Shown here piece by piece: positions 13,229-55,647 of a DNA stretch of 64,000 nucleotides (position 1 is its first letter; each line of letters begins with the position of its first letter). The stretch is from Micromonospora sp. R77 (lineage in GTDB: Bacteria; Actinomycetota; Actinomycetes; Mycobacteriales; Micromonosporaceae): NCBI RefSeq assembly GCF_022747945.1, contig NZ_JALDST010000001.1, positions 6,634,001 to 6,698,000 of the forward strand, in the 5' to 3' direction. The notes under the pieces are model-generated. The model made no database searches. It had not been told where the DNA came from and saw only the letters and a list, made by a program, of their open reading frames with translations. The position numbers and the translations under genes are program-made.

Positions 13229-13432
13229 GTCGCCTCCTCGGCCCGACGCTATGCCCGGTCCGGGCGGCGGCAAGCGGCCGGACGGCGCGGTCACCGGGGC
13301 GCGGCAGGGCTGCCCGGTCGGGCACCCCGGTCGAGGCGGTCGCCGTCGGCTGGCCGGCCGGGGCGCGCGGTGGCAGCGTCGCCGGCCGGGGCACCGCCCC
13401 GCCGATCGGACCCCCGACGACAGGAGACACCC

Positions 13433-15984: not shown

Positions 15985-16406
15985 CCCCCGACGACGAGAC
16001 GTTTCTCCGCCGTGCCGTGGAACTCGCCAGCAGGGCCGGGGCGTCCGGCGAGCGGCCGTTCGGCTCGTTGCTGGTCGGCGCGGACGGCACCGTCCTGATC
16101 GAGGACCACAACACCGTGGTCTCCGACTCGGACATCACCGCTCATCCGGAGCTCAAGCTGGCCCGCTGGGCCGCCCGGGAACTCGCCCCCGAGGTGGCCG
16201 CGCGGACCACCATGTTCACCAGCTGCCAGCCCTGCCCGATGTGCGCGACCGCGATCGACCGGTCCGGCCTCGGCCGGGTCGTGTACGCGCTCTCCGCCGA
16301 ACAGTTCGAGCAGGTCAGACCGGCCAGCGCGCCGCTGCCCCCGGTACGGTACGAGGGGCCGTTCCTGTTCGACGAGGCACGCCGGCCGATCGAGGACCAC
16401 TACTAG
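15981..16406 (+). CDS. CMP/dCMP-type zinc nucleoside deaminase
   Basis: 141 residues from GTG 15981 (reads VTPDDETFLRRAVELAS), with AGGAGG 4 nt upstream and a GTGA overlap with the oxidoreductase stop. Zinc-deaminase signatures: TAHPELKLAR, where the usual HAE is HPE (His ligand and general-base Glu retained), and TSCQPCPMCATAI supplying the PCxxC ligands. It is the size of guanine/cytosine/adenosine deaminases. The family hydrolyses amino groups from bases or nucleosides; a tailoring role cannot be excluded. Translation is coupled to the F420 oxidoreductase. Its stop overlaps the stop of the convergent FAD monooxygenase by 4 bp. Confidence 0.82.
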   Translation: MTPDDETFLRRAVELASRAGASGERPFGSLLVGADGTVLIEDHNTVVSDSDITAHPELKLARWAARELAPEVAARTTMFTSCQPCPMCATAIDRSGLGRVVYALSAEQFEQVRPASAPLPPVRYEGPFLFDEARRPIEDHY

Positions 16407-17605
16407 ACCGGGCCGGCGTCGGGCACCGGGGCGGCGAGCTGCGGCGGGCGCTGCATCTCCTGCCACATCTTCGGCGCACTGCGCGCCACCACCACCTTCG
16501 CCACCTGGCCCACCGCCCAGCGCAGCGCCTTGTTGCGGACCGGCTTGAACCGGCTGACCCGCAGCACCCGCTCCCGGATCCAGAAGACGCGTTCCCGGCG
16601 GCGGCGCTCGTACTCGCGCAGGCCGGCGGTGACGTCGGTGGCGGTGGCGAGGCAGTCGCCGAGCACCACGCCGTCCTCGATGGCCATGCAGGCGCCCTGG
16701 CCCAGGTCGGTGGGGAGGGCGTGGGCGGCGTCGCCGAGCAGGGTCACCGGTCCCTCGCCCCACCGGTCGTGCCACTCGTGGTAGTAGACGTCGAGCCGGC
16801 TGATCCTCTCGGGCGGGGTGGTGCCGACGAAGACGGGCGCCGGCCCGCCGACCGACGCGGCCAGTTCCTCCGCCCGGGCCGCGCTGCCGCCGGGGTCCTC
16901 GCCGCCGGGCTCGCGCTCGCAGGAGAGCGTCCACACCACCCGGTCGCCGCCGACCAGCCAGGCACCACCACCGATCCGGGTGTCCGGGTTGGTGAACAGG
17001 TGCACCACGCCCCGGCTGAGTCCGCAGGTGCCCGGGGCGATGCCCCGATAGGTGGACCGTCCGGTGTGCACGACGGGCAACTCACCGCGCAGCTGGGTGA
17101 GGATCGTCGAGCGGATCCCGTCGGCGGCCACCAGGGCGGCGCCGCTCACCGTCCGCCCGTCGCCGAGTTTCAGGGTCACCCCGTCGGCGGTGAGCTCGTA
17201 CCCGGTGGCGCGCTGCCCGTACTCGGGGTGCACGCCGTGTTCGGCGCACGCCTCGCGCAGCAGTTCGATGAGGTCACCGCGGCCGATGCCCACGGCAGGG
17301 GTGCCGCCGGGCGAGATGCTCTCCGCGATGGCCATCCGGAACATCACCCGTTGGTGCTGGTCGCGGCTCTCCGAGCCGGTCAGCACCTCCGCGCGGTCCA
17401 GCAACCGCCGCTTGAGCCCCAGCGACGCCAGGGAGGTCGTCGCGTTGCTCCAGATGGTGTGGCCGAACCCGGCGTTGGTGACGATCTCGGCCAGGTCGCG
17501 CCGCTCGTACACCTGCACGGGGATGCCGTGCCGGGCCAGGGCCAGGGCGGCGGTGAGGCCGCCGACCCCGGCGCCGGCGATGAGGATCGGTGCGGTGGTG
17601 GTCAT
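16403..17605 (-). CDS. FAD-dependent aromatic monooxygenase (group A), copy 1
   Basis: 400 residues from ATG 17605 (MTTTAPILIAGAGVGG). Group A flavin monooxygenase: dinucleotide motif GAGVGGLTAALALARHG at the N-terminus, LVAADGIRS (DG motif) near 160, and GDAALPTDLGQGAC-type sequence (GDAAH then LGQGAC) near 290, which binds the FAD ribityl/pyrophosphate. These enzymes hydroxylate or epoxidise aromatic or electron-rich substrates with NAD(P)H and O2 (salicylate hydroxylase, kynurenine 3-monooxygenase, TetX relatives). Last gene of the minus-strand operon, 15 bp after the methyltransferase. It is clearly paralogous to the monooxygenase at 34093-35304. With tryptophan 2,3-dioxygenase in the cluster, hydroxylation of a kynurenine-like residue is one possibility, but the substrate cannot be read from sequence. 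Confidence 0.87.
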   Translation of the reverse strand: MTTTAPILIAGAGVGGLTAALALARHGIPVQVYERRDLAEIVTNAGFGHTIWSNATTSLASLGLKRRLLDRAEVLTGSESRDQHQRVMFRMAIAESISPGGTPAVGIGRGDLIELLREACAEHGVHPEYGQRATGYELTADGVTLKLGDGRTVSGAALVAADGIRSTILTQLRGELPVVHTGRSTYRGIAPGTCGLSRGVVHLFTNPDTRIGGGAWLVGGDRVVWTLSCEREPGGEDPGGSAARAEELAASVGGPAPVFVGTTPPERISRLDVYYHEWHDRWGEGPVTLLGDAAHALPTDLGQGACMAIEDGVVLGDCLATATDVTAGLREYERRRRERVFWIRERVLRVSRFKPVRNKALRWAVGQVAKVVVARSAPKMWQEMQRPPQLAAPVPDAGPV

Positions 17606-17620
17606 GGTGTGCTCCTCGGG

Positions 17621-18220
17621 TCAGCGCCGGGTCATCAGCAGCATCACGGTGCGCGGGCGGGTCGGCAGGTATTCCAGGTCGAAGGCGTCGCCGAAGAGCT
17701 CCTTCTCCTCGCCGGGAGCGATCATCGGCGCCATCTTCGCGCCCCCCTTCAGCTCGCTCTTGTCGCCCTGGAAGCACCAGAGCAGCACCCGACCGCCGGG
17801 CCGGCTGAGCCGGTGGATGGCCCGGGCCACCGCCTGCCGCTGCTCTCCCTCGGTGTCGTTGAGCGCGCCGAAGTCGCAGATCAGGTCGTAGCAGTCGGCG
17901 AGGCCGGGGATCGGGCCGGCGGTGATGTCGGCCTCGGTGAAGGTGCACCGGTCGGCGACCCCGGCGGCCGTCGCGCGGGCCCGGGCCCGGCGCAGCGCCA
18001 CCGGCGAGAAGTCCACCCCGACGACCGGGCCGAAGCCCTGCGAGGCCAGGTAGACGGCCTCGGCGCCGGTGCCACAGCCGAGGTCCAGCGCGCGGGGCAG
18101 CTCGGTCGGGGTGAGGCGGCCGGACTCGACCAGCTCGGCGAGCTGGGGCCGGACCTCCTTGTCCCAGGGGGCCAGGTTGAACCGGTAGAGGGTGTTGTAG
18201 AAACCGGGGCGCAGCCGCAT
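17621..18220 (-). CDS. SAM-dependent methyltransferase
   Basis: 199 residues from ATG 18220 (MRLRPGFYNTLYRFNL), with AAGGA 8 nt upstream and a 1-nt TGATG overlap with the thioesterase stop. Class I Rossmann methyltransferase: motif I LDLGCGTGAEAVYLASQG, acidic residue at the end of strand 2 (VGVDFSP), motif II YDLICDFGALND, then GGRVLLWCFQGD. It is short, like thiopurine or small-molecule methyltransferases. As part of the biosynthetic operon it probably O-, N-, C- or S-methylates the product or a precursor. The assembly-line subunits here contain no embedded methyltransferase domain, so any methyl group would come from this enzyme. Confidence 0.86.
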   Translation of the reverse strand: MRLRPGFYNTLYRFNLAPWDKEVRPQLAELVESGRLTPTELPRALDLGCGTGAEAVYLASQGFGPVVGVDFSPVALRRARARATAAGVADRCTFTEADITAGPIPGLADCYDLICDFGALNDTEGEQRQAVARAIHRLSRPGGRVLLWCFQGDKSELKGGAKMAPMIAPGEEKELFGDAFDLEYLPTRPRTVMLLMTRR

Positions 18221-18960
18221 CAGGACGTCCTTCCGTTCTCCGCCGGCGCCGTCCGCGCCGGTTCCAGGTCCGCGGCGATCCCCTTGAGCACGGTCGCCTG
18301 TTCGTCGTTGAGGAAGAAGTGGCCGCCGGGCAGGACCCGTACGTCGCACGGGCCGGTGCTGAGCGGGGCCCAGTCCGGCAGCGTGGACGGTGGGGCCTCC
18401 GGGTCGTCCGCGCCGCCGTAGACGGTCAGCGGTGGGCTGATCCGCGGGCCGGGTCGCCACCGGTAGGTGTCGGCGGCCTCGAAGTCGGCGCGCAGGACGG
18501 GGATCACCAGGTCCAGCAGCTCGTCGTGGGCGAGCACCTCCTCCGGGGTGCCGGCCAGCTCGCGCAGCCGCTCGCGGAACTGCGCGTCGGGCAGCCGGTA
18601 GTCGTACCGGCCGGCGGGCTGGGGGTGCTGCGGCGGGAGGTGACCGGAGACGAACAGGTGCGTCGCGGGCCGCCCGTGCAGGTGTTCCAGCCGGCGGGCC
18701 AGCTCGAACGCGACCAGCGCGCCGAGGCTGTGGCCGAAGAGGGCGTAGGGGCGGTCGATGCGGTCGAGCACCGGCCCGAGGACGTCCGCGGTGATGGCGT
18801 CCACGCTGGTCAGCGGCGTCTCGACGATCCGGGCGCCGCGACCGGCCAGCTCCACCGGCACCACCTCGACGCTGTCCGGCAGCTCGCGCTGCCAGCGGCC
18901 GTAGACGCGCATCGCGGAGCCGCCGGCGTACGGCAGGCAGAACAACAGGACCCGGCTCAC
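18220..18960 (-). CDS. Type II thioesterase of NRPS/PKS systems
   Basis: 246 residues from ATG 18960 (MSRVLLFCLPYAGGSA). The FCLPYAGGSA opening is diagnostic of the GrsT/RifR-like type II thioesterases. The nucleophile elbow is FGHSLGALVAFELA (Ser near 95), the acid is in VYGGADDPEAP, and the catalytic His is in PGGHFFLNDE. The family removes aberrant acyl or aminoacyl groups from carrier proteins, and in some clusters supplies the only hydrolytic release activity. That matters here because the KS-AT subunit has no thioesterase domain. It lies 3 bp downstream of the acyl-CoA dehydrogenase. Confidence 0.92.
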   Translation of the reverse strand: MSRVLLFCLPYAGGSAMRVYGRWQRELPDSVEVVPVELAGRGARIVETPLTSVDAITADVLGPVLDRIDRPYALFGHSLGALVAFELARRLEHLHGRPATHLFVSGHLPPQHPQPAGRYDYRLPDAQFRERLRELAGTPEEVLAHDELLDLVIPVLRADFEAADTYRWRPGPRISPPLTVYGGADDPEAPPSTLPDWAPLSTGPCDVRVLPGGHFFLNDEQATVLKGIAADLEPARTAPAENGRTS

Positions 18961-18963
18961 CGG

Positions 18964-20142
18964 TCAGCCCTCCGCCGGGGCGGGGCCCCGGTCCTGGGTG
19001 GCGGCGATGGTACGGAACTGCATGTTGGAGGTCCCCTCGTAGATCTTGCCGACCTTGGCGTCCCGGTAGAACTTCTCCACCCCGTGCTCGGGGACGAAAC
19101 CGTTGGCACCGAGCGTCTCCACGGCCAACGCGGCGGCCCGCTCGGCCACCTCCGAGGCGACGTACTTGGCCATGGCGGTGGCGCGCAGCCGCTGGGCGGG
19201 CGAGCCGCCGTGCTGGAGCAGCCGGGTGGTGTCGTAGAGCAGCGCGCGGGCGGCCTGGAGTTCGGCGGCGATCCGGGCCAGCGGGAACGCCACCCCCTGG
19301 TACGTGCCGATCGGCTGGCCGAACTGGTGGCGGCGGGCCGCGTAGCCGGTCGCGGCGTCCAGCACCCCCTGGGCCAGCCCGACGAGCTGGGCGGCGATGC
19401 CGACCTTGCCGACGTTGAGCGTCTCCACCGCCAGCAACTCCCCCGCGCCGGGGCGGCCGAGCAGGTCCCGCCGGCCGACCCGGACGCCGTCGAAGGTGAC
19501 GTCGCAGGTGGAGCTGGCCCGGATACCCATCTTGGCCACCGGCGGACCGACGGTCAGGCCGGGGGCGTCCCGGTCGACCAGGAACGCGGTGAGGCCGGCG
19601 TCGGCGAGCCGGGCGAAGACCACGAAGAGGCCGGCCTCGGCGGCGCTGCTGATCCAGCGTTTCGCCCCGTCGATGACGTATCCACCGCCGTCGGCGACGG
19701 CCCGGGTGCGGCCGTTGAACGCGTCACTGCCGGTGTCCGGCTCGCTGATCGCGTACGCGCCGACGGTGCCGTTGGCCAGCCGGGGCAGGTGCCGGCGGCG
19801 GGTGTCCCCGTCGCCGTGGTGCAGCAGCGCGCTGGCCACCAGGGCGTTCTGCACGTCGACCAGGACGGCCACCGACGGGTCGACCCGGGCAATCTCCTCG
19901 ACGGCGAGGACCACGGCGAACAGGTCCCGCCCCGCTCCCCCGTACACCTCGGGGATCTCGATGCCCAACAGCCCGGCGGCGAAGAGTTCCCGGACCAGGT
20001 CGGGGTCGATCCGGGCGGCGTCGTCCATGGCCCGGACCCGGGGGGCGACGACCTCGGCGGCGACGCCACGGACGGTGTCGCGCCACTTCTGGTCCTCGGG
20101 CGGCAGCCAGGTCACCGGCTGCGGCACGGTGGCGACGGTCAT
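18964..20142 (-). CDS. Acyl-CoA/acyl-carrier dehydrogenase, copy 1
   Basis: 392 residues from ATG 20142 (MTVATVPQPVTWLPPE); ATGA overlap with the stop of the KS-containing synthase. Standard acyl-CoA dehydrogenase: YAISEPDTGSDAF (flavin/substrate binding), RWISSAAEAG, RRHQFGQPIGTYQGV, and the catalytic Glu in KIYEGTSNMQFRT near residue 375. FAD-dependent alpha,beta-desaturation is the family reaction. In NRPS/PKS clusters such enzymes often act on carrier-bound acyl or aminoacyl groups, such as prolyl-PCP. Tight coupling to the azole/PKS subunit suggests it desaturates the starter acyl chain or the heterocyclic intermediate; the substrate is inferred. Confidence 0.88.
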   Translation of the reverse strand: MTVATVPQPVTWLPPEDQKWRDTVRGVAAEVVAPRVRAMDDAARIDPDLVRELFAAGLLGIEIPEVYGGAGRDLFAVVLAVEEIARVDPSVAVLVDVQNALVASALLHHGDGDTRRRHLPRLANGTVGAYAISEPDTGSDAFNGRTRAVADGGGYVIDGAKRWISSAAEAGLFVVFARLADAGLTAFLVDRDAPGLTVGPPVAKMGIRASSTCDVTFDGVRVGRRDLLGRPGAGELLAVETLNVGKVGIAAQLVGLAQGVLDAATGYAARRHQFGQPIGTYQGVAFPLARIAAELQAARALLYDTTRLLQHGGSPAQRLRATAMAKYVASEVAERAAALAVETLGANGFVPEHGVEKFYRDAKVGKIYEGTSNMQFRTIAATQDRGPAPAEG

Positions 20143-23100
20143 CGTGGGCTCCCCTCGGTGTCGGCGGCGGTGCCGTCGGCCGGGTCCACCGGGGTCGCGG
20201 CGGAGTCCGGGGCGGCCGTTCGGCGGCCGGTCACGGCGGTGAGGAAGGCGGTGAGGTCGGCGCCGCCGAGGCCGGCGAGCGGGAAGTCGCTCGGGCTGAC
20301 CGTGCCGGCGCCCGGCCAGGCGCAGTGCGCGGCCAGCTCGCCCAGGGCGGCGTCCAGCCCGTCGGCCAGGGCGTCCAGGGTGGCGGTGTCGGCCGGGTCG
20401 GCACCGGGGGCGTGCAGCTCCACCAGCAGGTCACCGGCGGCCAGGTGTCCGGTGACCAGCACCCGGTGCCCGGGTCCGTCGCCCACGCCGAGGGCGCCCG
20501 CGGGTTCGCCGGCCGCGCCGGTGCGCCGTTGAGGTCGCCGAGGTGACGCAGCAGCAGCAGTTGCGCGGACCGGTCGGTCGGCACCGGCCGCGCGGCCGCC
20601 CGGCGGTGGTGTTCCTTGACCGCCGGCACCAGCTCCGTCAGGTCGTCGGTGAGCGTCAGGGCGAGCGGGGCGACGGCGGCGTACAGGCCGACCGCGCCGG
20701 TGACGTCGAGGTCGGCGACCCCGTCGGCGCGCAGGTCGTGCTCGACGTCCAGCACCACCCGGTCGACGCCGGTGCCGGCCTGCGCGGGCGAGCGCGACCA
20801 GCACCACCTCGTCGGCGGCCAGCCGGTACGCCCGCGACGCCGCGTCGAGCAACGCCCGCGACTCCGGCACCCGCAGCAGCCGCCGGTAGTCGGCTCCCGG
20901 CGTGGCGGCGCCCAGCGGAGCAGGTCGGCGTCCCCGGCCGCGCGCTGCGGTGGATCGACCGGCGGCCGGTCGACGGCGGCCAGCCGGTCCGCCCAGCGGG
21001 CCAGCGGGACGGGTGGGGCGGGCAGGTCCGGCTCGGCGCCGGTGGCGGCCCGGTCCAGGACCCGGCGCAGGTCGGCCCAGAGCGGGCCAGGAGCGGGCGT
21101 CCACCGCGAGGTCGGCGACCAGCAGCACCAGCCGGCGGTCCCCGCCGCCGAGGTCGAACAGGACGGCCCGGGTCAGCGGCCCGTCGACCGGGTCGAGTTC
21201 GGCGCGGATGTCGGCGACCATCTGGTCGCGGGCCGCCGCCCGCCGGGCCTCGGGCAGCGGCGCGAGGTCGATCAGCGGCACGTACGCCTCCTCCGCCCCG
21301 CCGATCCGCTGCCGCCAGCCGTCCGGTCCGTCGACGAGGCGCAGCCGCAGCGCGGGGTGGGCGGCGAGCAGGGCGGCCAGCACCCGGCCGGCGGTGTCGG
21401 CGTCCAGATCGGCGGGCACCGGCACGTCGAGCACCTGCACGCCGAGCGGGGCGGGTCGGCCCGTCCGGCCCGAGCAGGGCCCGCTGCCAGGGGGTGAGCG
21501 GGAAGCTGTCGTCGGTGGTGTCCCGGCCGGCGGCGGTGGCCCGGGCCTCGGCGACCGCCGCGAGGTCGGCGACGATCTGGTGGGCGAACAGGTCGGCGGG
21601 GGTGATGTCGAGGCCCTCGGCGGTGGCCCGGCCGATGATCTGGATGCCGGTGATGGAGTCCCCGCCGATGGCGAAGAAGTTGTCGAACGGCCCCACCCCG
21701 GGCTGGCCGAGGACCTCCCCGACCAGTCGGGCCAGCAGCAGCGCGGTGGGGGTCGCCTCGCCGGTCGGCGCGTCCGGGCCGGCCGTCCGGGCCGGGTCGG
21801 GCAACGCCGTCCGGTCCACCTTGCCGTTGGCCGACAGCGGCAGCCGGTCCAGCGCCACCACCACGGTCGGCACCATGTACGCCGGCAGCACCCGGGCGGC
21901 CTCCTGCCGGACCGCCTCGACGAGGGCGTCCCGGTCGGCGGTCGGGTCGGCCGGCACCACGTACCCGACGAGGCGGCGGTGGTGGCGATCGCCGGGCGCG
22001 GCGGCGACCGCGGTGGCCACCCCGGGGTGGCGGGTCAGCGCCGCCTCGATCTCGCCCAGCTCGATCCGGTAGCCGCCGACCTTGACCTGGAAGTCCTCCC
22101 GGCCGAGGAACTCGATCGTCCCGTCCGGCCGCCACCGTCCCAGGTCACCGGTGCGATAGAGGCGCTCCCCCGTCACCGGGTGGGTGACGAACCGCGTTGC
22201 GGTCCTCTCCTCGTCGCGCCAGTACCCGTCGGCCAGGCCGGCGCCGCCGATGAACAGCTCGCCGGTCACCCAGACCGGGCACTCCTGCCACCGGTCGTTG
22301 AGCACGTGGAAGGTCTGGTTGCGCAGCGCCCGGCCGTACGGGACGGACTCCCAGGCGGGATCCACCTCGTCGATCTCGTGGCAGATCGACCAGATGGACG
22401 CCTCGGTGGCGCCGCCGAGGCTCACCGGCAGACAGTGCCGGGCGAGCTCGCGCAGTCGGCCCGGCAGGTCGACCGGGATCCAGTCGCCGGACATCAGGAA
22501 CAGCCGCACCGGTTCCAGCGCACCCGCCGGCCCGTTCGCGGCCACCTGGTCGGCGAGCATCTGGGCCAGCGCCGGCACCGAGTTCCACACGGTCACCCGG
22601 TGCGCGGCGACCAACTCCGCCCAGTGGCCGGGGTCGCGGTTGCTGCCGGGCCGGGGCAGCACCAGCCGACCGCCCGCGCCGAGCAGCCCGAACACGTCGT
22701 AGACGGAGAGGTCGAAGCTGAGCGAGGACAACCCGAGCGCGGCGTCGTCCGGACCCACCCGGTAGCGGGCGTTGATGTCGTCGATGGTGTTGCGGGCCGC
22801 CCGGTGGCGGATCATCACGCCCTTCGGGGTGCCCGTGGAGCCGGAGGTGAAGATGACGTAGGCGAGGTCGTCGGGGCCGGCGATCTGCTCCGGCGCGGTC
22901 TCCGTACCGGCCGGTGGGTCGGCGGCGAGATCCACCACCAGCTCGGTCACCCCGTCCGGCCAGGACCTCCTCGGGCCGCCGGCGCGGGTCAGCACCGCTC
23001 GGCAGCCGCCGAACGACACCAGGTGGTCCTGCCGGTCGGCGGGCAGGTCCGGGTCCACCGGCAGGTACGCCGCGCCGGCCAGCAGCACCCCGAGCGCCGC

Positions 23101-33600: not shown

Positions 33601-33835
33601 CTCGACCGGCCGGGGCCAGCCGGGGGGCGAGGACGGCCGCGAGGGCGGCGGAGCGGCGGTCGTACGCCCCCCGGGTGAGTTCCCGCACGACGCCGCGACC
33701 GTCGGAGGTGTCGGTGCCGGCGGGGAAGGACAGCTGCGCGAAGGCGACCGCGTCGGGATCGGCCGTGGCGTTGGCCCGGAGGATGTCGAGCAGGGTGGTC
33801 GCCTGGATGCCGCCGTCGATGGCAAGGTCGGTCAT
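27696..33835 (-). CDS. FAAL-ACP-Cy-A(Ox)-PCP azole-forming loading subunit
   Basis: About 2046 residues with one frameshift. ATG 33835 (MTDLAIDGGIQATTLL), AGGAG 6 nt upstream. FAAL 1-600: YTSGSTGAPKGVM near 188, CAPNFAFE, NLYPQDVELT; activates a carboxylic acid as acyl-AMP and passes it to the ACP (about 648, LGLESLRA, Asp before Ser replaced by Glu). Cy 710-1140: DLLVADVAS. A domain from about 1150: FTSGSTGAPKGVM near 1326. The specificity positions read about DLWNWSSIW, not the usual cysteine code. An FMN-oxidase of the McbC/SagB type is inserted at about 1660-1890 within the A domain (RRASRRAFADRP, RYASAGALYPVQTY, LLEAGEMSQLL). PCP near 1971 (LGADSVTI). Expected result: an acyl chain joined to an oxidised azole (thiazole or oxazole). 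Followed with 4-bp overlap by the KS subunit. Confidence 0.9.
32000..32060 (-). other. Frameshift in the FAAL-ACP linker
   Basis: The FAAL frame runs through PAAAPMRDM, then good sequence resumes one frame over at GHVVALDEALRAPVL, just before the ACP. The region is G/C-rich. Either a single-base sequencing error or a true split into separate FAAL and ACP-NRPS proteins. I favour error because no start codon with a Shine-Dalgarno precedes the ACP. Confidence 0.7.
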
Positions 33836-47300: not shown

Positions 47301-49230
47301 GTGGCGAGCAGGTTGCCCAGGGCGCGGTGCGGCACCGCGATCGCGCTCTTCGGCACGCCGGTCGACCCGGAGGTGTGCACGTACGCCAGGCCGGGGACCG
47401 CCGGCCACTCCGGCTGCCTTCGGGTAGGTCACCGTCGACGCGCAGCACCGGCAGCCCCCGGGCAGGGCGTCGACGGTGCCGGCGTCGGCGAGCACCAGCG
47501 CGGCCTCGCCGTCGGCGAGCACGAACGCACGGCCTGGCCGGCAGCGCCACGTCCACCGGCAGGTACGCCGCGCCGCAGCCGAGCACGCCGAGCAGGGCGG
47601 CGGGCAGGTCGACGTCGCGGTCCACGGCGACGCCGACGAGCTGCCCGGGGCGTACCCCGGCGGTGTGCAGGGCGGTGGCGATCCGCTGGGCCCGGGCGAC
47701 CAGGTCGGCGTACCCCAGTCGGCCGGAACGCCCGGTGACCGCGACCCGGCCGGGGTGGGCGGCGGCGCGCGCGGCGACCAGGGCCGGCAGGGTGTCGGCC
47801 GGCACCTCCCGGGTGGGGCCGCTCCCCCACTCCACCAGCCGCGCCCGGTCGGCGTCGGTGAGCAGCGGCAGGTCGGACAGCGCCCGGTCGGGGTCGGCGA
47901 CCGCCGCGTCGAGCACCAGCCGCAGGTGGGTCAGGAGCCGCCGGGCGGTGGCCGGGTCGAACAGGGCGGTGTTGTGCTCGACGGTGACGGTGAGCCCGCC
48001 GTCGGCGCGGGGCACGCAGGTGACGAAGAGGTCGAACTTGGCGGTGCCCGGGTCGATGCGGAACAGCTCGGCGGTGATGCCGGTGGCGGTCAGCGCGGGC
48101 AGCGGCACGTTGCCGAAGACGAACATCACCTGGAACAGCGGGCTGCGGGCCAGGTCCCGGTCGGGGCGCAGCCGCTCCACCACCCGCTCGAACGGCACGT
48201 CGGCGTGGGCGTACGCGTCGAGGCAGGTGCCGCGGACCCGGTCGAGCAGGTCGGCGAAGCGGGGGTCGCCGTCGGCGTCGACGCGCAGCACCAGGTTGTT
48301 GACGAAGAAGCCGACCAGGTGTTCCAGCTCCGGGGCGCGTCGCCCGGCGACCGGCGTGCCGATGGCCAGGTCGGCCTGGCGGGTGTGCCGGGCCAGCACG
48401 GCGGCGAAACCGGTCAGCACCGTCATGAAGAGGGTGGCCTGGTGCGCGCGGCCGAGCCGGTCCAGCCCGGCGACCAGCTCGGCGGGGAGCACGGTGTCGA
48501 CGGTGCCGCCGGCGAAGGTCTGGGTGGCCGGTCGGGGCCGGTCGGTGGGCAGCTCCAGCGGCGGCAGCCCGGCCAGCCGCTGCTCCCAGTACCGCAGCTG
48601 ACCGGCCTCCTCGTCGCCGCCGACCCACTCCCGCTGCCAGGCGGCGAAGTCGCCGTACTGCACGGGCAGCTCGGGCAGCTCCGGTTCCGTCCCGGCCACC
48701 GCGGCGTCGTAGCAGGCCAGCAGCTCCCGGACGAAGACCGCGCCGGACCACTGGTCGTAGACGGCGTGGTGGAAGGCGACGACCAGGACGTGGTCGCCTT
48801 CGCCGAGGCGGTACAGCACCACCCGGAACAGCGGCGGCCGGGTCAGGTCGAACGGCTGTCGCAGCAGCTCCCGCAGCTCGTCGGCGAGGGCGGCGTGCAC
48901 CGTCGGGGTGTCCGCGCCGGCGGGCACCCGGCCGGCGGCGTCGACCTGCTCCACCGGCACGGCCAGGTCGGTGGCGACGGCCTGCACCGGCTCGCCGTCG
49001 ACCAGGACCAGGCCGGTGCGCAGCGTCTCGTGCCGGGCCACCATGGCCGCGACCGCGGTGGTCAGCGCGGCCACGTCCAGCTCACCGGTGATCCGCAGGG
49101 CGCCGTGCTCGGTGTACGACGCGGCGCTGCCCGGTTCGAGCAGGTCGAGGAACCAGAGCCGGCGCTGCCCGTACGACGTGGGCAGCAGGTACGCCTCCCG
49201 GGTGGAGACCGGGTTGTCATCGACACTCAC
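35291..49230 (-). CDS. Four-module NRPS with terminal thioester reductase (NRPS-B)
   Basis: About 4646 residues allowing for frameshifts. GTG 49230 (reads VSVDDNPVSTREAYLL), AGGAG 7 nt upstream. Modules C-A-PCP x4, then R. PCPs near 1001, 2061, 3133 and 4176 (each GGHSLLA). A1 reads D-I-L-Q-?-G-L-V-W with NLYGPTETTVWST; A2 reads D-M-L-Q-L-G-L-V-W; both resemble the glycine code DILQLGLIWK. A3 (FDVSVFELWG, LSQTPTAF, MYGTTETTVHAT) and A4 (FDVSVFEMVL, GYGPTEATVYAT) are unassigned; A3 resembles the NRPS-A domain. The four C domains carry HHAVYDQ, HHAVGDR, HHAVCDR and HHAVGDQ. The last 400 residues are a reductase: LLTGATGFLGAYLA near 4258 and YNHSKWVAEQ (YxxxK). The family releases an aldehyde or alcohol with NAD(P)H. 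No E domain or TE. Stop overlaps copy 2 of the monooxygenase. Confidence 0.9.
43671..43734 (-). repeat. 64-bp exact repeat, module 2 copy
   Basis: Identical to 46830-46893, offset 3159 bp, inside the A8-region coding for GRRVPVGVPG of NRPS-B module 2. It sits in a longer stretch (about 43430-43800) that stays highly similar to module 1. Suggests recent module duplication or gene conversion. Confidence 0.85.
45450..47540 (-). other. Frameshift cluster in NRPS-B modules 1-2
   Basis: Six shifts: about 47533 (after VDVALPA, resuming FVLADGE), 47457 (a G5 run, resuming LPVLRVDGD), 47415 (resuming EWPAVPGLAYVHTSG), 46381 (after KVDRQA, a missing C restores LPAPDPARRAG), 45505 (resuming QRQLDHWR) and 45465 (C5 run, one C short, resuming ALADLPVLDLPTD). 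Domain sequence is intact on each side, so the gene is treated as one CDS. Confidence 0.8.
46830..46893 (-). repeat. 64-bp exact repeat, module 1 copy
   Basis: Identical to 43671-43734, in the corresponding part of the module 1 A domain. The surrounding segment (about 46590-46960) is near-identical to module 2 at DNA level, including third positions. Confidence 0.85.
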
Positions 49231-49274
49231 GCGGACACTCCTCGCTGTGGTGACACGGACGGTGCGGGGCCGGG

Positions 49275-52200
49275 TCAGACCCGCTGGGCCCGGCGCGGCT
49301 GGCGGGCGATCACCGGCACGGCGGCGGCCGGGCGCCGGGTCAGCTCGTCGATCGCGGTGGCCAGCCGCTCCAGCACGGGGTGGTCGAAGATCGCCCGGAC
49401 CGGCACCTCGACGCCGAGCACGCCACGCAGCCGGAACGCCACCCGGGTGGCGAGCAGGGAGTGCCCGCCGAGGGCGAAGAAGTCGTCGTGCACGCCGGCC
49501 TTCTCCACCCCGAGCATCTCCCGCCACGCGGCGGCGACCGCCTCCTCGGTGGGGGTGCGCGGGGCGACGTACTCCCGGTCCAGGTCGGGGCGGGCGCCGT
49601 CGAAGTCGGGCAGCGCGGCCCGGTCGGTCTTGCCGTTCGGGGTGAGCGGGAACCGGTCCAGGGTGACCAGGTGGGCGGGGACCATGTATTCGGGCAGCAC
49701 CGCGCGCAGGGCGGCGGTCACGTCGGCGTCGGCCACCGTCGCCCCGTCGGCCGGGACGAGGTACGCCACCAGCCGGGTGTCCCCGGCGATCGTGCGGGGC
49801 AGCACCACCGCGTCGGCGATGTCCGGCCGGTCGCGCAGCGCGGCCTCGATCTCGCCGGGCTCGACCCGGAAGCCGCGGATCTTGACCTGGTGGTCGGCGC
49901 GGCCGAGGAACTCCAGTTCCCCGTCGTCGGTCCACCGGGCCAGGTCGCCGGAGCGGTACATCCGCTGGTCGCCCTCGCCGGCGTAGAGGTCGGGCACGAA
50001 CCGCGCGGCGGTCAGCTCGGGCAGGTTCCGGTAGCCGAGGGTGACGCCGGCGCCGGCCACCCAGATCTCCCCGCGCACCCCGGGCGGCACCGGCATGCCG
50101 CGCTCGTCGAGCAGATAGATCCGCAGGTCGGGCAGGGGACGTCCGATGTTGCTGCGGACCGGGCCGGTGAGGTCGGCACGGGTGATCCGCCGGTAGGTGG
50201 AGTGCACCGTGGTCTCGGTGATGCCGTACATGTTGACCAGGTGGGGCTGCTCGTCGCCGTACCGGTCGACCCAGGGCGCGAGCGCCGGGATGTCCAGGTA
50301 CTCGCCGGCGAAGATCACGTACCGCAGCGGTAGCCGGGGCGCGTCGTCGGCCAGCGCCGGGGCCATGAACTGGCGGAACGCCGACGGGGTCTGGCTGAAC
50401 ACGGTGACCCGCTCGGCGTCGAGCAGGCGCAGCAGGGCCTCCGGGTCGCGGATGGTGTCGTGCGGGACGACCACCAGCCGGGCGCCGGTGCCGAACGCGC
50501 CCCACATCTCGAACACCGACACGTCGAAGGCGTACGAGTGGACCATGCTCCACGCGTCGTCGGCGGTGAACTCCATCCGGGTGCCCGCCCCGGCGACCAG
50601 CCGGGCCACGTTGGCGTGGCTGACCAGCACCCCCTTGGGGTGACCGGTGGAGCCGGAGGTGTAGATCAGGTAGGCGACGTCGTCCGGGGCGGGGCCGTCG
50701 TCCGGTGGGGTGGCCGGCCGGGCGGCGATCGCCTCGGCGTCGGTGTCGAGGTTCACCACGGTGCCGGCGAAGTCCGGGACGGAGTCGGCCACCGCGTCGT
50801 GGGTGACCAGGGCGGCGACGTCGGCGTCGGCGAGGATCCAGCGCATCCGCTCGACCGGGTGTCCCAGGTCCAACGGCACGTACGCGGCCCCGGCGGTGAG
50901 CACGCCGAGCACCCCGATGACGGTGTCCAGGGAGCGTTGCAGGCAGAGCCCGACCCGGTCGCCGGGGCGCACCCCGGACCCGCGCAGGTGGTGGGCGAGC
51001 CGGTTGGCCCGCGCGGCCAGGTCGGCGTAGCTGAGCCGGGCACCCTCGCAGACCACCGCGACGGCGTCCGGGGTGGCGGCGGCGGAGCGGGCGAACAGCT
51101 CCGGCAGGGCGGCCACCGGTTGCGGCTCGGTACGGTTCCAGTCCAGCAGGACCTGCCGCCACTGGTCGGTGGGCATGATGTCCACGTCGCCCAGCCGCAG
51201 CTCGGGGTAGCGCGTCAGGTTGGTCAGGGTGGTGGAGAACTGGTCGACCAGCCGGCGGACGGCGGCCTCGGTGAACCGGGTCTGGTCGTAGACCATCCGG
51301 GGCACCGGCATCGCCTCACCCGGCATGACGATCATGGTGATCGGGAAGTGCGGGCGACCGTCGTAGGTGGACTCCAGCAGCTCCACCTCGTGCAGGGCCA
51401 TGTCCGGCACCGGCACGTTCTCGAAGGCCAGGTCGACCTCGAACAGCGGCCGGTTGCCGGGCAGGTCGGCCAGGGCGCGCAGGTCGGTCAGGGAGATGTC
51501 GGCGTGGTCGCGGGCCCGGGCCATGTCGTTCTGCAGCTCGCGCAGCCACCCGATCAGGTCGGCGTCGTCGCGGACCCGACCGCGGACCGGCATGGTGGCC
51601 AGCATCGGCCCCATGATGCGTTCGCTGCCGGTGAGCGTCGGCGGGCGCTGGGTGCCGGTGGAGCCGACCAGGACGTCCGCCCGGCCCAGGTGGCGGCTCA
51701 GCACGATCATCCAGGCGCCCTGCATCAGGGTGTTCAGGGTCAGCCCGTGTTCCCGGCCGAACGCGGTCAGCGGCGGCAGCAGTTCCAGCAGTTCCGGGGT
51801 GGGCAGCACCGCGTGGGTGGGCTCGCCGTCGGGCAGCGGCCCGACCGGGGCGGGGCCCAGTTCCAGGGTGTCCGGGGCGGAGTAGCCGGCCAGGTGCTCG
51901 CGCCAGAACGCCTCGGTGGTGGTCCGGTCCTGCCGGGCCCACCAGGACAGGTACGACCGGTACGGCCGGGCCGGCGGCAGGTCCGCCGCCGTCCCGGTGG
52001 CGAACGCGTTGTACAGGGCGGTCAGCTCGGCGAAGGCCAGCCCGAACGACCAGCCGTCCATCAGCAGGTGGGAGAAGCTCCAGAAGAACTCCCACTCGTC
52101 GTCGGCGAAGCGGATCAGCCTGGCCCGCATCAGTGGCGCGTCGGCGTAGTCGAAGCCGGTCATCCGGTCGTCGTGGGCGAACCGGGCGTACCGCTCGGCC

Positions 52201-52499
52201 TGCCCGGCCGGGTCGGCGTCCCGCCAGTCCAGCACCTCGATCGGGAACTCCACGTCCCGGTGCACCACCTGGAGGGCCTTGTCGACGCCCTCCCAGTGGA
52301 AGCTGGTGCGCAGCACCGCGTGCCGGTCCACGATGGCCTGCCACGCCGCCCGGTACGCGGCCACGTCCAGCGCCCCGCGCATCCGCATGGTGACCTGTTC
52401 CAGATAGATGCCACTGCCGGGCGAGTACAGGTTGTGGAAGAGCAGCCCTTCCTGGATGGGGGACAGCTCGTAGACGTCCTCGATGCCCTCGTGCTCCAT
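49275..52499 (-). CDS. Single-module NRPS C-A-PCP (NRPS-A)
   Basis: 1074 residues from ATG 52499 (MEHEGIEDVYELSPIQ), GGGAGGAG upstream; TGATG overlap with the upstream AT-like gene. C domain 8-440: the opening ELSPIQEGLLFHN resembles C domains that follow an epimerase-ended partner; active site SHLLMDGWS near 145 (second His and DG kept). A domain 463-950: YTSGSTGHPKGVL, specificity region FDVSVFEMWG, FSQTPSAF, FAGEYLDI, MYGITETTVHST, roughly D-V-F-S-?-G-M-V-H, which I cannot assign. It closely matches module 3 of NRPS-B, so both should load the same or a related residue. PCP near 1011 (LGGHSLLA). It has no loading domain, so it must receive a chain from another subunit. 44 bp before NRPS-B. 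Confidence 0.92.
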   Translation of the reverse strand: MEHEGIEDVYELSPIQEGLLFHNLYSPGSGIYLEQVTMRMRGALDVAAYRAAWQAIVDRHAVLRTSFHWEGVDKALQVVHRDVEFPIEVLDWRDADPAGQAERYARFAHDDRMTGFDYADAPLMRARLIRFADDEWEFFWSFSHLLMDGWSFGLAFAELTALYNAFATGTAADLPPARPYRSYLSWWARQDRTTTEAFWREHLAGYSAPDTLELGPAPVGPLPDGEPTHAVLPTPELLELLPPLTAFGREHGLTLNTLMQGAWMIVLSRHLGRADVLVGSTGTQRPPTLTGSERIMGPMLATMPVRGRVRDDADLIGWLRELQNDMARARDHADISLTDLRALADLPGNRPLFEVDLAFENVPVPDMALHEVELLESTYDGRPHFPITMIVMPGEAMPVPRMVYDQTRFTEAAVRRLVDQFSTTLTNLTRYPELRLGDVDIMPTDQWRQVLLDWNRTEPQPVAALPELFARSAAATPDAVAVVCEGARLSYADLAARANRLAHHLRGSGVRPGDRVGLCLQRSLDTVIGVLGVLTAGAAYVPLDLGHPVERMRWILADADVAALVTHDAVADSVPDFAGTVVNLDTDAEAIAARPATPPDDGPAPDDVAYLIYTSGSTGHPKGVLVSHANVARLVAGAGTRMEFTADDAWSMVHSYAFDVSVFEMWGAFGTGARLVVVPHDTIRDPEALLRLLDAERVTVFSQTPSAFRQFMAPALADDAPRLPLRYVIFAGEYLDIPALAPWVDRYGDEQPHLVNMYGITETTVHSTYRRITRADLTGPVRSNIGRPLPDLRIYLLDERGMPVPPGVRGEIWVAGAGVTLGYRNLPELTAARFVPDLYAGEGDQRMYRSGDLARWTDDGELEFLGRADHQVKIRGFRVEPGEIEAALRDRPDIADAVVLPRTIAGDTRLVAYLVPADGATVADADVTAALRAVLPEYMVPAHLVTLDRFPLTPNGKTDRAALPDFDGARPDLDREYVAPRTPTEEAVAAAWREMLGVEKAGVHDDFFALGGHSLLATRVAFRLRGVLGVEVPVRAIFDHPVLERLATAIDELTRRPAAAVPVIARQPRRAQRV

Positions 52500-53572
52500 C
52501 AGCGTCTCCTCCCGGGCCGGGGCACGCCGGCTTCCGTCTGGTCGGGCAGGTGGGGTGAGTCCCGGCGGGCGGCCAGCAGCGCCCGGACCGCGCGGACGGG
52601 ATCGGGGTGGGACGGCGGCCGACCCTCCGCGTCGGTGGGCAGCACGGCCCGCGCCGGCAGGTCGGGGTTGCTCTGGCGGAGCAGGCCGGTGAGCGTGCCG
52701 CCGGGGCCCACCTCCACCAGCCGGTCCCCGGCGCGGAGTTGGCCGGCGGCGTCGGCGAAGCGCACCGGGTGCAGCGGCTGGCGCAGCCAGTGCTCCCGGT
52801 CGACGGCCTCGTCGGCGCTGACCGGACGACCGCTGACGCTGCTCAGCCAGCGGATCCGTGGGGTTCGGGGCGCCACCCCGACCAGCGCCCCCGCCACCGG
52901 AGCGAGCCGGGACGGCACGTCGTCGGGATGCCCGGCGACCGGCGTCGGCGGCCGGTGGCAGGTGACGTAGAGCTGGGCGAGGTCGCGTTCCCAGCGCCGC
53001 AGCTCCGGCTCGGGGCCGGCCACGACACAGGACTCCGGGGTGTCGACCGCGACCAGCCGCACCCCGGGGGGCAGCTGCCGGGTCACCTCGGCGGGCGGCA
53101 GCCCGACGCTCATCGTGGCGGTCGGCGGCAGGTCGGCGGCGAGCCGGCCGTACCCGACCGCCAGCCGCAGCGCGTCCGCCGGGTCGAGGACCCCGGCCGC
53201 GCAGGCAGCGGTGACCTCGCCGACGCCGTACCCGAGGACCGTGTCGGGGGCCAGTCCCGCGTCGGTGAGCAGCCGGGTCAGGGCGTGCTCCAGGACGAAC
53301 AGCGCCGGGTCGGCGGCGTCGGGTGGCACCGGGCCGCCGGGCGGCCCGAACAGCACCGCGTGCACCCGGCCGGCCAGCGCACCGTCCAGGGCGGCGAGCG
53401 TCGTGTCGATCCCGGCCCGGACCACCGGTGCGGCGTACGCGCCACGGCCCATGCCGGTGGCGGCGGCGGCCCGTCCGGGGAAGAGGAACACCAGTCGGTC
53501 GGGCCGGTAGGACGACGGGGCGGCGGTGGGTGCCCCGCCCACCGTGGTGGTGGTCGGCGACGTCTCGGTCAT
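52499..53572 (-). CDS. Acyltransferase-fold protein lacking catalytic residues (pseudo-AT)
   Basis: 357 residues from ATG 53572 (MTETSPTTTTVGGAPT). From about residue 26 it follows a PKS acyltransferase throughout: RLVFLFPGRAA (normally FPGQGSQ), ALFVLEHALTRLL, LGYGVGEVTAACAAGVLDP, VAVDTPESCVVAGPEP, LVEVGPGGTLTGLL. But the nucleophile motif GHSxGE is GYGVGE (Ser to Gly, His to Tyr), the oxyanion-loop Gln is gone, and the HAFHS motif with the catalytic His is replaced by AGHPDD. It therefore cannot form an acyl-enzyme by the known mechanism. It precedes NRPS-A with a 1-nt overlap, in an intact frame without the shifts seen elsewhere. It may be a docking or scaffold protein, or a non-acylating binder; inference only. 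Confidence 0.85.
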   Translation of the reverse strand: MTETSPTTTTVGGAPTAAPSSYRPDRLVFLFPGRAAAATGMGRGAYAAPVVRAGIDTTLAALDGALAGRVHAVLFGPPGGPVPPDAADPALFVLEHALTRLLTDAGLAPDTVLGYGVGEVTAACAAGVLDPADALRLAVGYGRLAADLPPTATMSVGLPPAEVTRQLPPGVRLVAVDTPESCVVAGPEPELRRWERDLAQLYVTCHRPPTPVAGHPDDVPSRLAPVAGALVGVAPRTPRIRWLSSVSGRPVSADEAVDREHWLRQPLHPVRFADAAGQLRAGDRLVEVGPGGTLTGLLRQSNPDLPARAVLPTDAEGRPPSHPDPVRAVRALLAARRDSPHLPDQTEAGVPRPGRRR

Positions 53573-53746
53573 CGGGTCCCCTCTCCGCCGTACGCGGCGC
53601 CGGTCGCTCCGGCGGACGGCGTCGGTCGCCGGGACGCCGCCCGTCGATCACGTTGCCGCCCGGTTCCCCGCCGGGCCGCCCTCGGACGGAGACTCCGCCC
53701 GGGCACGGTCCGGCGGGGTCGGCCGGCGGTGCCCGAACGGCTACCC

Positions 53747-53762
53747 GGCCGACCGGTCGGCC
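53747..53762 (-). terminator. Palindrome after the tryptophan dioxygenase gene
   Basis: Perfect 16-bp palindrome GGCCGACCGGTCGGCC, 6 bp beyond the dioxygenase stop, in a 196-bp gap before the AT-like gene. Could be an attenuator or terminator, or an operator for a promoter in the gap. No T-tract. Confidence 0.35.
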
Positions 53763-53768
53763 CGCCGG

Positions 53769-54536
53769 TCACAGCTGGCTCCGCCACTGCCACAGCTCCG
53801 GGAAGAACCGCTCGTCCCGCCGGGACCGCAGGTACGCCACCCCGGCGGAGCCACCCGTGCCCGCCTTGTGCCCGATCAGCCGCTCGACCGCCACCGCGTG
53901 CCGGGCCCGCCACATCGCCCACGCCTCGTCGTGGTCGAGCAGCGTCTCGGCGACCGCCAGCAGCGCGCTGTCCGGCCGGCCGCTGCGCAGCAGCCGTACC
54001 GGATCGGTCACGCCGTGCCGGTGCAGCAGCAGCCGGAAGGTCTCGGCGAGGCTCGGTTCCCGCAGCCGCCGGTCGAGCCGGGCCGCGGCGGCGCTGCCCG
54101 GCGGCGCGACCACCGCGTGGCCCCGGCCGCGCAGGCCGGAGAGGTACTCGATCTCCCGGTAGCGCACCGACTGGAAGCCGCTGGCGGTGCCGAGGTGCGG
54201 GCGGAGGCCGGCGAACCCGGCCGGGCTGATCGTGGTCAGGGTGTCCAGCTGGGTGACGAGCAGCCGGTCCACCGCCACCACCCGGCGCAACCGGTGCAGG
54301 GCGTCGGGCAGGGCGTCGGTGTGCAGCGCGGTCCGGGCGGCCACCAGCTCGTGCACGATGAGCTCGAACCACACCTCGAACGCCTGGTGCACGAGGACGA
54401 AGAACCGTCCGTCGGGGTGGTCCGGCACCTGTTCGGTGGCCGCCAGCAACGCGTCGAGGTGCAGGAAGGTGGCATAGTCGGCGGGCGCCGGCGTGACCAC
54501 CGCCGACTCCGCGCGCGGGTCCTGGTGGATGGTCAT
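53769..54536 (-). CDS. kynA: Tryptophan 2,3-dioxygenase
   Basis: 255 residues from ATG 54536 (MTIHQDPRAESAVVTP), overlapping the racemase stop by 4 bp (ATGA). Heme dioxygenase opening the indole ring of L-Trp to N-formylkynurenine. Family marks: FFVLVHQAFEVWFEL (active-site His near 55), TASGFQSVRYREIEYLSG (substrate-binding Arg), and the heme-ligand His in LIGHKAGTGGSAGVAYLR near the end. Length is slightly shorter than primary-metabolism copies (about 280). No formamidase or kynureninase gene is in the window, so it probably serves the assembly line by supplying kynurenine, as DptJ does for daptomycin and TioF for the thiocoraline chromophore. Confidence 0.93.
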   Translation of the reverse strand: MTIHQDPRAESAVVTPAPADYATFLHLDALLAATEQVPDHPDGRFFVLVHQAFEVWFELIVHELVAARTALHTDALPDALHRLRRVVAVDRLLVTQLDTLTTISPAGFAGLRPHLGTASGFQSVRYREIEYLSGLRGRGHAVVAPPGSAAAARLDRRLREPSLAETFRLLLHRHGVTDPVRLLRSGRPDSALLAVAETLLDHDEAWAMWRARHAVAVERLIGHKAGTGGSAGVAYLRSRRDERFFPELWQWRSQL

Positions 54537-55647
54537 CGCAGGTCGCCTCCTCGGTAGACCCGGCGCACCCGGGGACCGACCCGGGTGAGCAGTTCGTTGG
54601 GGATGGTGCCGGCGGCCGCCGCCCACTCGGCCAGGGTCGGCTCGCCCGAGGTGCCCGGCCCGAACAGGACGACCGGGTCACCGGCCAGAACCGGGGCGTC
54701 GGGCACGTCCAGCACGAACTGGTCCATGCAGACCCGCCCGCTGATCCGCCGTCGGCGCCCGGCGAGCAGCACCTCGGCGCGGTTGCCGGCGGCCCGGGGC
54801 ACCCCGTCGGCGTATCCGGCGGCGACCAGGGCCAGGGTGGTCGGGCCGGGGGTGACGTACTCGTGGCCGTAGGAGACCGGGGTGCCCCCGGGGACCTGGC
54901 GGGCCAGCACGACGGGCGCCCGCAGGGTCATCGCCGGTACCAGGGTCACCGGCGGTGGCACCGGCAACGGGTTGATGCCGTAGATCGCGATGCCGGGCCG
55001 GATCAGGTCGTACGTGGCGGCCGGCACGGCCAGCGCGCCGGCCGAGTTCGCCAGGTGCCGCAGCCGGGGGACGACGCCGTGCGCCGCCGCCACCTCCAGC
55101 GCCTCGTCGAAGAGCGCCAGCTGCCGGGCGGTGGACGGGTGGCCCGGCTGGTCGGCGTTGGCCAGGTGGCTCCACACCCCCACCACGTCCAACTCCTCCC
55201 CCGCCGTCTTCCCGGCGGCGAGCACCAGGGTCGCCCGCGCCGGGGTGCGGCTGGCCTGCGCGCAGCCGGTGTCCACCTTGAGGTGCACCCGGGCCGGCCG
55301 GCCGACCCGCGGGCCGCGGCGAGCAGGTCGTCGAGGGTGCCGGGGTCGGAGACGGAGAGGTCGACGCCGGCCCGCACGGCCGCGTCCAGCTCCTCGCCGG
55401 GGCGGGGCAGCCAGCACAGCACGGGGGCGGTGATGCCGGCAGCGCGCAGCGCCATCGCCTCCGGCAGGTACGCCACCCCGAGCCAGGTGGCCCCCGCGTC
55501 GAGGGCGGCCCGGGCGACGGGGACCAGGCCGTGGCCGTACCCGTCGGCCTTGACCACCGCCATCACCTCGACCCGGCGCAGCCGGCGCAGGACGGAGACG
55601 TTGTGCGCGACGGCCGCCAGATCGATCTCCGCTTCGCACCCGACCAT
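54533..55647 (-). CDS. alr: Alanine racemase (frameshifted)
   Basis: About 371 residues with one frameshift near 55310-55325. ATG 55647 (MVGCEAEIDLAAVAHN); no strong Shine-Dalgarno. PLP lysine in VMAVVKADGYGHGLVP, then VHLKVDTGCAQ, WSHLANADQP, HLANSAGALA, RPGIAIYGINPL, the catalytic-Tyr region PVSYGHEYVTPGP and AAGYADGVPRAAGN, VCMDQFVLDV. The set is complete for a fold-type III racemase. It is the first gene of the core operon and translationally coupled to tryptophan dioxygenase. It may be the housekeeping enzyme or a cluster copy giving a D-amino acid; D-Ala or D-Ser would suit an NRPS without a functional epimerase, but that is inference. Confidence 0.88.
55310..55325 (-). other. Frameshift in alanine racemase
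   Basis: The N-terminal frame ends DDLLAAARG; the C-terminal frame resumes GRPARVHLKVDTG. The break is in a run of alternating G and C. Sequence on both sides is well conserved, so error is likely. Confidence 0.7.

Follow-up and report, generated by a model that had tools for sequence, protein, structure and literature searches.

A 64,000-nucleotide stretch of the 7.14 Mb genome of Micromonospora sp. R77 (contig NZ_JALDST010000001.1; G000:C1:6634001-6698000), hereafter the window, contains four large minus-strand genes encoding nonribosomal peptide synthetase (NRPS) and polyketide synthase (PKS) subunits, named C, D, A and B. Probably, judging from their sequences, these subunits constitute one hybrid assembly line read in the order C-D-A-B, which would start from a fatty acid and finish with the reductive release of a peptide. 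The combination is apparently undescribed in the sources covered, although its logic is of a known kind; no characterised cluster with this domain string was found in the open-licence PubMed Central (PMC) literature, a scope that excludes subscription papers and MIBiG and in which part of the searches had other aims. The predicted lipid-bis-heterocycle-peptide aldehyde or alcohol scaffold is encoded in cultivable type strains, and no described product was found for it in the literature covered. Orphan hybrid clusters as such are frequent.

Domain architecture of the four subunits

Domains were called by Pfam, NCBIfam and motif searches on pieces of the window, taken from stop to stop or from a start codon, and the positions of the condensation (C) and adenylation (A) domains were obtained by family searches across the strain's own genome. 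The window sequence was used as it stands, without mending frame breaks. The coding-frame signal runs along the minus strand from 55.6 to 16.4 kb, and Pfam located on that strand, at about 16.4-55.6 kb, every domain named in the original prediction. The domain string proposed there for the four subunits is correct, as supported by Pfam and active-site motifs in the window, with which the intact orthologs agree:

27696..33835, minus strand: NRPS-C, FAAL-ACP-Cy-A(Ox)-PCP (Pfam, intact ortholog, FAAL compared with solved structures); AMP-binding part of FAAL 32555-33778, ACP about 31795-32000, Cy 30417-31592, A 29244-30293, Ox/nitroreductase insert 28257-28772, PCP 27807-27986
20139..27699, minus strand: NRPS/PKS-D, KS-AT-ACP-Cy-A-PCP-E' (Pfam, motifs, intact ortholog with a second condensation-type domain); KS 26554-27681, AT 25288-26118 (HAFH), ACP 24751-24942, Cy 23662-24663, A 22219-23274 (code DLYNLSLIW), PCP, E' about 20190-21504
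49275..52499, minus strand: NRPS-A, C-A-PCP with a COM-acceptor-like N terminus (Pfam, codes, C domain compared with solved structures); A domain 50031-51095
35291..49278 (start approximate), minus strand: NRPS-B, (C-A-PCP)x4-R (Pfam, intact 4688-aa ortholog); C domains 47836-49182, 44711-46046 (split), 41480-42790 and 38342-39661; A domains 46775-47772 (split), 43616-44644, 40388-41422 and 37271-38284; R 35717-36451

The FAAL of C is fused to an ACP with the motif LGLESL. At full length, the best 15 of its 23 matching PDB sequences bear the labels polyketide synthase (7r7e-g), saframycin Mx1 synthetase B (3kxw), acyl-CoA synthase, FadD32, FadD23, FadD28 or fatty acyl-adenylate ligase, and several of these proteins act as FAALs. 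Both heterocyclisation (Cy) domains show DxxxxDxxS instead of HHxxxDG (DLLVADVAS in C, DLMIADIGS in D). A nitroreductase-type domain (PF00881), as expected of an azole-forming oxidase (Ox), lies inside the A domain of C, and Pfam did not find this family in D, either in the window or in the ortholog from Micromonospora halophytica (genome G050). The window pieces of D retain TACSSS and HGTGT in the ketosynthase (KS) and GHSVGE and HAFH in the acyltransferase (AT), and the carrier serines are present. HHxxxD is kept in the four C domains of B, whose terminal reductase (R; PF07993) has the motifs TGATGFLG and GYNHSKW of a short-chain dehydrogenase/reductase, as expected for reductive release.

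Order of the subunits

According to the original prediction, the C-D pair runs straight on into A-B, since the first pair has no release domain and the second no loading domain. This joining is supported by the gene order in another actinobacterium, by the co-occurrence of the four genes and by the nature of the joint between D and A. The lines downstream of C-type proteins were examined in the window, in M. halophytica, in two further Micromonospora genomes (G100 and G119), in Actinopolyspora mzabensis and in Micromonospora endolithica. In A. mzabensis, which belongs to another order, the homologs of C, D, A and B are adjacent and follow each other in precisely that sequence (G160:C19, from 62429 down to 40864), the start-stop overlap being ATGA between D and A and GTGA between A and B. 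Its Cy2 reads DLLIADIGS by eye, and its B contains one module before R. The A-domain pocket codes of the head (DLWNWSSIW in C, DLWNLSLVW in D) and the first code of the peptide part (DVFSIAMVH in A) agree with those of the window, save for drift in D, while the length of the tail differs, B carrying DILQLGLVW, a Gly-like code, ahead of R. After B come homologs of the FAD monooxygenase, acyl-CoA dehydrogenase, thioesterase, methyltransferase and exporter of the window. This gene order, together with the matching codes, is the strongest evidence for the putative order C-D-A-B.

In the window, A and B are transcribed ahead of C and D. The genes follow each other as alanine racemase, Trp 2,3-dioxygenase (TDO), a standalone AT-like protein, A, B, an FAD monooxygenase, C, D, acyl-CoA dehydrogenase, type II thioesterase, methyltransferase and a second FAD monooxygenase. 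With respect to co-occurrence, the standalone AT gene was found (E <= 1e-50) in four of 160 Micromonospora genomes, the window's own included, and C, D, A and B are all present in these four (G000, G050, G100 and G119).

The joint between D and A

COM motifs consist of an SDFPL tail that follows an E-type domain on the donor and of a short N-terminal acceptor preceding the C domain of the partner. Sequence comparison reveals such an arrangement here: the C-terminus of D has an epimerisation (E)-type domain, E', with an SDFPLA tail, and the N-terminus of A, IEDVYELSPIQEGLLFH, is COM-acceptor-like. Among chains of solved structure, E' matches the E domains of PvdL, BacC and TycA, and the C domain of A matches best McyB C1, and then PvdL E2-C3-A3 and the C domains of surfactin and bacitracin synthetases. 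Several of these matched C domains, those of McyB and surfactin among them, follow E domains.

The motifs needed for catalytic epimerisation are degenerate in E'. HHxxxDG reads ADLAVDA in the window, G050 and G119, AELAVDA in G100, SELVVDA in M. endolithica and HELAVDT in A. mzabensis, and EGHGR aligns with ERDLR. For a wider view, 14 D-type proteins, 13 with a KS and one fragment without it, were picked from the best 120 of 868 matches. Thirteen of the D-type proteins among these listed matches extend into E', and 12 of them lack the HH pair, with the first His kept in two; the remaining one, the longer protein P0113, keeps HHLAVDG, and a further D-type protein ends ahead of E'. HHxxxDGxSW was found somewhere in 102 of the 106 other proteins among the same matches. 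The ratio of nonsynonymous to synonymous substitution rates (dN/dS) lies at 0.48-0.55 for E' (three pairs), versus 0.13-0.22 in Cy, 0.21 in the KS and AT of D (G119-G050 only) and 0.21-0.29 in NRPS-A, which indicates that selection on E' is relaxed, not neutral. An AlphaFold model of E' (mean pLDDT 68, pTM 0.46, from an alignment of five sequences) matched E and C domains of the PDB with E-values down to 6e-21 and TM-scores of only about 0.3-0.4, and lends weak support to the kinship with E domains.

Since the HH pair has gone from 12 of 13 D-type proteins, E' is probably a hinge or connector and no epimerase. It has been reported that an E domain is always accompanied by a COM domain, a tie called unexplained, and a scaffold role has been proposed for COM in the part of PMC12402864 consulted. 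A dead E domain with a retained COM tail would fit that proposal.

As for what lies downstream of the joint, the head would be followed by A plus one module in Actinopolyspora, by A plus four in Micromonospora, and by a bare C-PCP-R protein in M. endolithica. It is tentatively proposed, with slightly less than an even chance of being right, that there is an actinobacterial family in which a fixed head (fatty acyl-azole/azoline-ketide-azoline) is plugged, via a dead-epimerase COM scaffold, into peptide subunits that can be exchanged and that end in reductive release. If this were true, the dead E domain would naturally separate E-COM scaffolding from epimerisation. The repeated loss of the epimerase His, with the domain and the COM tail staying, provides a natural test of the scaffold role as worded in the portion of PMC12402864 seen, and the three types of downstream partner on one head would be a natural example of subunit exchange at a COM-type joint.

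Pocket codes and predicted product

Code positions were extracted by positional rules. The window codes are DLWNWSSIW in C, DLYNLSLIW in D, DVFSIAMVH in A and, in order, DILQWGLVW, DMLQLGLVW, DVFSIAMVH and DVFFGGGVY in B. We take DLYNLSLIW to be a Cys code, the DILQ/DMLQ codes to denote Gly and HAFH in the AT of D to indicate malonyl specificity. Members of the family carry at the first A position either DLWNWSSIW or a code close to it, or the Cys-like code DLYNLSLIW or a variant of that. Ring 1 may be a thiazole or an oxazole, the latter being considered because DLWNWSSIW departs from the Cys code. A text search of the open-licence PMC literature for six pocket codes as words gave no match.

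The FAAL would adenylate a fatty acid and load it onto the fused ACP, and the acyl-CoA dehydrogenase may desaturate the fatty acyl chain. Cy1 would couple the acyl group to Cys (or Ser) and close the ring, which Ox would oxidise to the azole. The KS of D would then add one malonyl unit which, lacking any reduction, would keep its ketone, and Cy2 would couple Cys to give a thiazoline, no Ox being available. The chain would leave D at the tail of its non-epimerising E domain, cross the COM-type joint and enter the C domain of A, the COM acceptor. Later, A would add a residue X, and B two Gly-like residues, a second X and one more residue, before R releases an aldehyde or an alcohol. TDO, the flavin monooxygenases and the methyltransferase would tailor precursor or product, which would be exported by the major facilitator superfamily (MFS) protein. 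The product predicted in this way is fatty acyl-azole-C(O)CH2-thiazoline-X-Gly?-Gly?-X-Y-CHO or -CH2OH; we infer this structure, the identity of its residues and the aldehyde or alcohol end.

Regarding X, kynurenine was suggested by the TDO gene and rejected: the published kynurenine code given in the part of PMC9113097 seen, DAWTTTGVGK, differs from DVFSIAMVH, and none of the A codes read here equals it, despite the TDO gene. X modules and FAD monooxygenases number two and two in Micromonospora, and one and one in A. mzabensis, and these paired counts are at most a hint to the nature of X.

Comparison with known systems

The nearest described logic found is that of the cyanochelin B line (ccs, Leptolyngbya sp. 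NIES-3755; PMC12628792). According to the sections of that paper seen, it resembles the window in its FAAL start, PKS/NRPS hybrid nature, peptide extension, Cys-specific Cy module leading to an acyl-thiazoline and reductive release, there presumably converting a terminal Gly to ethanolamine. Unlike the window, this cyanobacterial line has one methyl-thiazoline, KR and C-methyltransferase domains and beta-OH-Asp, and no azole-ketide-thiazoline pair is described in those sections, the architectures having been compared by description only. The lusichelin line (lus, Lusitaniella; PMC12210259, seen in part) is similar in alternating Cys-Cy modules with PKS units and in having thiazoline and thiazole rings linked by a two-carbon unit, and differs in its salicylate starter, the KR/DH of its ketide and its methyl ester end; the word reductase is absent from the text available. 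In lipopeptide clusters, FAAL, ACP and acyl-CoA dehydrogenases are found together (PMC9113097, portion consulted). Daptomycin-type initiation is alike in that the lipid is supplied by FAAL and ACP, sometimes with an acyl-CoA dehydrogenase; there a C-III domain hands the lipid on to an amino acid, whereas in the window line it would pass straight to a Cy domain (same portion of PMC9113097).

Frame breaks in the window copy

The coding-frame path contains eight frame breaks: three in B (about 47418, 46381 and 45500), one in C (about 32017), three in the E' part of D (about 21455, 20788 and 20525) and one in the alanine racemase (about 55312). G119 shares 93.8% DNA identity with the window over 16.4-63.2 kb, and in both G119 and G050 the same genes are single open frames devoid of these breaks, with stop-to-stop lengths (G119/G050) of 4658/4688 aa for B, 2216/2137 for C and 3006/2743 for D; the alanine racemase ortholog of G050 is also in one frame. 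In G100, B and D occupy one frame each and the first ~140 FAAL residues lie in another frame. Domain annotation on the intact G050 orthologs, free of frameshifts, gave four C, four A, four PCP and one R domain for B. Elsewhere in the same assembly, other NRPS genes have C domains split between neighbouring matches, near 306.6/307.5, 5420.3/5421.0 and 5429.3/5429.8 kb of the contig. Taking into account both this and the absence of the breaks from G119 and G050, insertion or deletion errors in sequencing or assembly are the likely cause.

Alternative explanations

Several observations weigh against the proposed line and its chemistry. Among the clusters examined, biosynthetic gene order occurs only in A. 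mzabensis, whose homologous cluster is distant (most assembly-line pieces share about 36-58% identity, E' being the lowest, and B is shorter). In the C domain of A the motif is SHxxxDG, the first His being replaced, and DH stands at this place in the fourth C domain of B in G100 (DHTIGDQ, by eye). DLWNWSSIW in the first A pocket differs from the Cys code of other members at that position, and the first B code, DILQWGLVW, was read by eye in the window (it is the same in the G100 ortholog). In M. endolithica, taking into account that the C-PCP-R protein has no A domain, that its R shows YxxxQ for YxxxK and that Cy2 is ELMMADMGS, with the first Asp replaced (both by eye), the chemistry may differ.

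The four subunits could instead form two lines in one operon. In that case the type II thioesterase or hydrolysis would free a lipo-azole-ketide-thiazoline from C-D, and a starter C domain would let A-B begin a separate peptide aldehyde. The missing release domain of D and the missing loading domain of A could both be made up for in trans, and M. endolithica has C-D alongside a different NRPS set. This arrangement is improbable in view of the start-stop overlap between D and A in A. mzabensis, of the best matches of A's C domain, which are elongating C domains, several of them placed after E domains, and of the presence of C-D in the four genomes with the AT marker (a search that started from AT, and not from A-B without C-D). 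Still less probable is that the eight breaks are real and the cluster a decaying pseudogene line in this strain: the broken genes are intact in G050 and in the closely similar G119, and the split C domains elsewhere in the assembly are what indel errors would give.

The function of E' and of the product can also be read in other ways. E' might be an active epimerase, or a platform recruiting tailoring enzymes like the X domain of glycopeptide synthetases. Its kinship with E domains (including the low-confidence model) and the HHLAVDG kept in P0113, one of the 13 D-type proteins reaching E', speak for this, as does precedent, non-catalytic C-type domains that recruit oxygenases being known in the X domain. 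It is nevertheless unlikely, HHxxxDG being degenerate in all clusters read, ERDLR standing for EGHGR, and dN/dS being well above that of Cy. E' may still have a recruiting role. A similar, rather low, likelihood is given to the product being a metallophore, in which the beta-keto azole-azoline and peptide donors would bind iron, copper or zinc. By analogy, the siderophore cyanochelin B combines an acyl-thiazoline peptide, FAAL and reductive release (PMC12628792, sections seen), and the lusichelins, which contain thiazole and thiazoline rings, act as chelators of iron and copper (PMC12210259, in the text available). Against it, the transporter is an EmrB-type exporter, and no siderophore receptor, binding protein or iron regulator appears among the annotated genes, for which no dedicated search was made. 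The aspartate beta-hydroxylase that goes with the beta-OH-Asp modules of a cyanochelin-type siderophore does not appear among the annotated genes, no search with its own profile having been carried out.

Relatives and distribution

The domain string is found beyond this strain. NRPS-C has a 90% identical copy in M. halophytica DSM 43171 (G050), and its Cy-A-Ox-PCP part exceeds 60% identity in three of 101 genomes (G000, G050 and G100; G119 was outside that sample). All four AT-carrying genomes keep a block that starts at the BioF/serine palmitoyltransferase-like gene (about 10.86 kb), extends as far as the window's right end and has a single window-only gene inside it (15025-15981). More D-type proteins occur in M. 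citrea, M. mangrovi and other Micromonospora strains (protein-database search, best 120 of 868 matches). Actinobacterial proteins of the FAAL-ACP-Cy-A(Ox)-PCP type, about 2000-2090 aa long and with the Pfam content of C, are present in Micromonospora, Natronosporangium, Streptomyces and Actinokineospora (best 120 of 190 matches); the Ox family appears in 28 of the best 31 rows, while the annotation marks the remaining three as partial, and we know of no product for these proteins.

M. endolithica (G017/L042) has a C homolog without Ox, a D homolog and different further NRPS genes, its C-PCP-R protein starting with NLDDVYELTPMQQGMLFH, which is COM-acceptor-like. Cy2 of A. mzabensis and of M. 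endolithica, and one C domain of G100, were missed by the motif patterns and read by eye. The Pfam list of P0153, a protein of 2477 aa, includes AMP-binding, condensation, nitroreductase and thioester-reductase families. It is possibly a minimal version of the line; a pattern search found no Cy motif in it.

Accessory and neighbouring genes

Other genes of the same strand run and its surroundings are the following:

54533..55638 (start approximate), minus strand: alanine racemase-type gene (Pfam)
53769..54536, minus strand: TDO-type protein (Pfam, PDB alignment, NCBIfam below the model cut-off)
52499..53572, minus strand: standalone AT-like protein with the nucleophile motif GYGVGE instead of GHSxGE (Pfam)
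34093..35304, minus strand: FAD-dependent monooxygenase 1, aromatic hydroxylase-type (Pfam, NCBIfam, PDB)
18964..20142, minus strand: acyl-CoA/acyl-ACP dehydrogenase (Pfam, NCBIfam), with homologs beside the A. mzabensis and M. endolithica lines
18220..18960, minus strand: type II thioesterase (Pfam), with a homolog beside the A. mzabensis line
17621..18460, minus strand: S-adenosylmethionine-dependent methyltransferase (Pfam), with a homolog beside the A. mzabensis line
16403..17605, minus strand: FAD-dependent monooxygenase 2, about half identical to monooxygenase 1 (Pfam, NCBIfam)
15025-15981, plus strand: F420-type luciferase-like oxidoreductase, the window-only gene
13350..15028 (start approximate), plus strand: EmrB-type MFS exporter (Pfam, NCBIfam on the G119 ortholog), with a homolog beside the A. 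mzabensis line
about 12221-13420, minus strand: HisC-type aminotransferase, kept in four Micromonospora genomes
10856-12148, plus strand: serine palmitoyltransferase/BioF-type synthase, kept in four Micromonospora genomes
57076-63998: second FAAL, second acyl-CoA dehydrogenase, BCAT-type transaminase, LuxR regulator, alpha/beta hydrolase and KAS III gene
532-4782, minus strand: DUF4062-NACHT-HEAT repeat protein, outside the conserved block

The standalone AT, TDO and alanine racemase genes belong to the same strand run and were absent from the original prediction. The standalone AT reads GYG[VSA]GE for GHSxGE, so that the catalytic Ser is missing, in the four Micromonospora copies, all of them in frame, with dN/dS of 0.36-0.59; it is probably non-catalytic, a fast-evolving scaffold or a remnant. 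A TDO homolog with 44.6% identity adjoins the A. mzabensis line, on the other strand.

The BioF-type synthase and the HisC-type aminotransferase had no match in the A. mzabensis stretch, nor had the F420-type oxidoreductase in the G050 or G100 stretches; in G119, just 184 nt separate the blocks that flank the latter. The gene set at 57076-63998, conserved in the four Micromonospora genomes, perhaps supplies the starter, and the protein encoded at 532-4782 is possibly a defence-type STAND protein.

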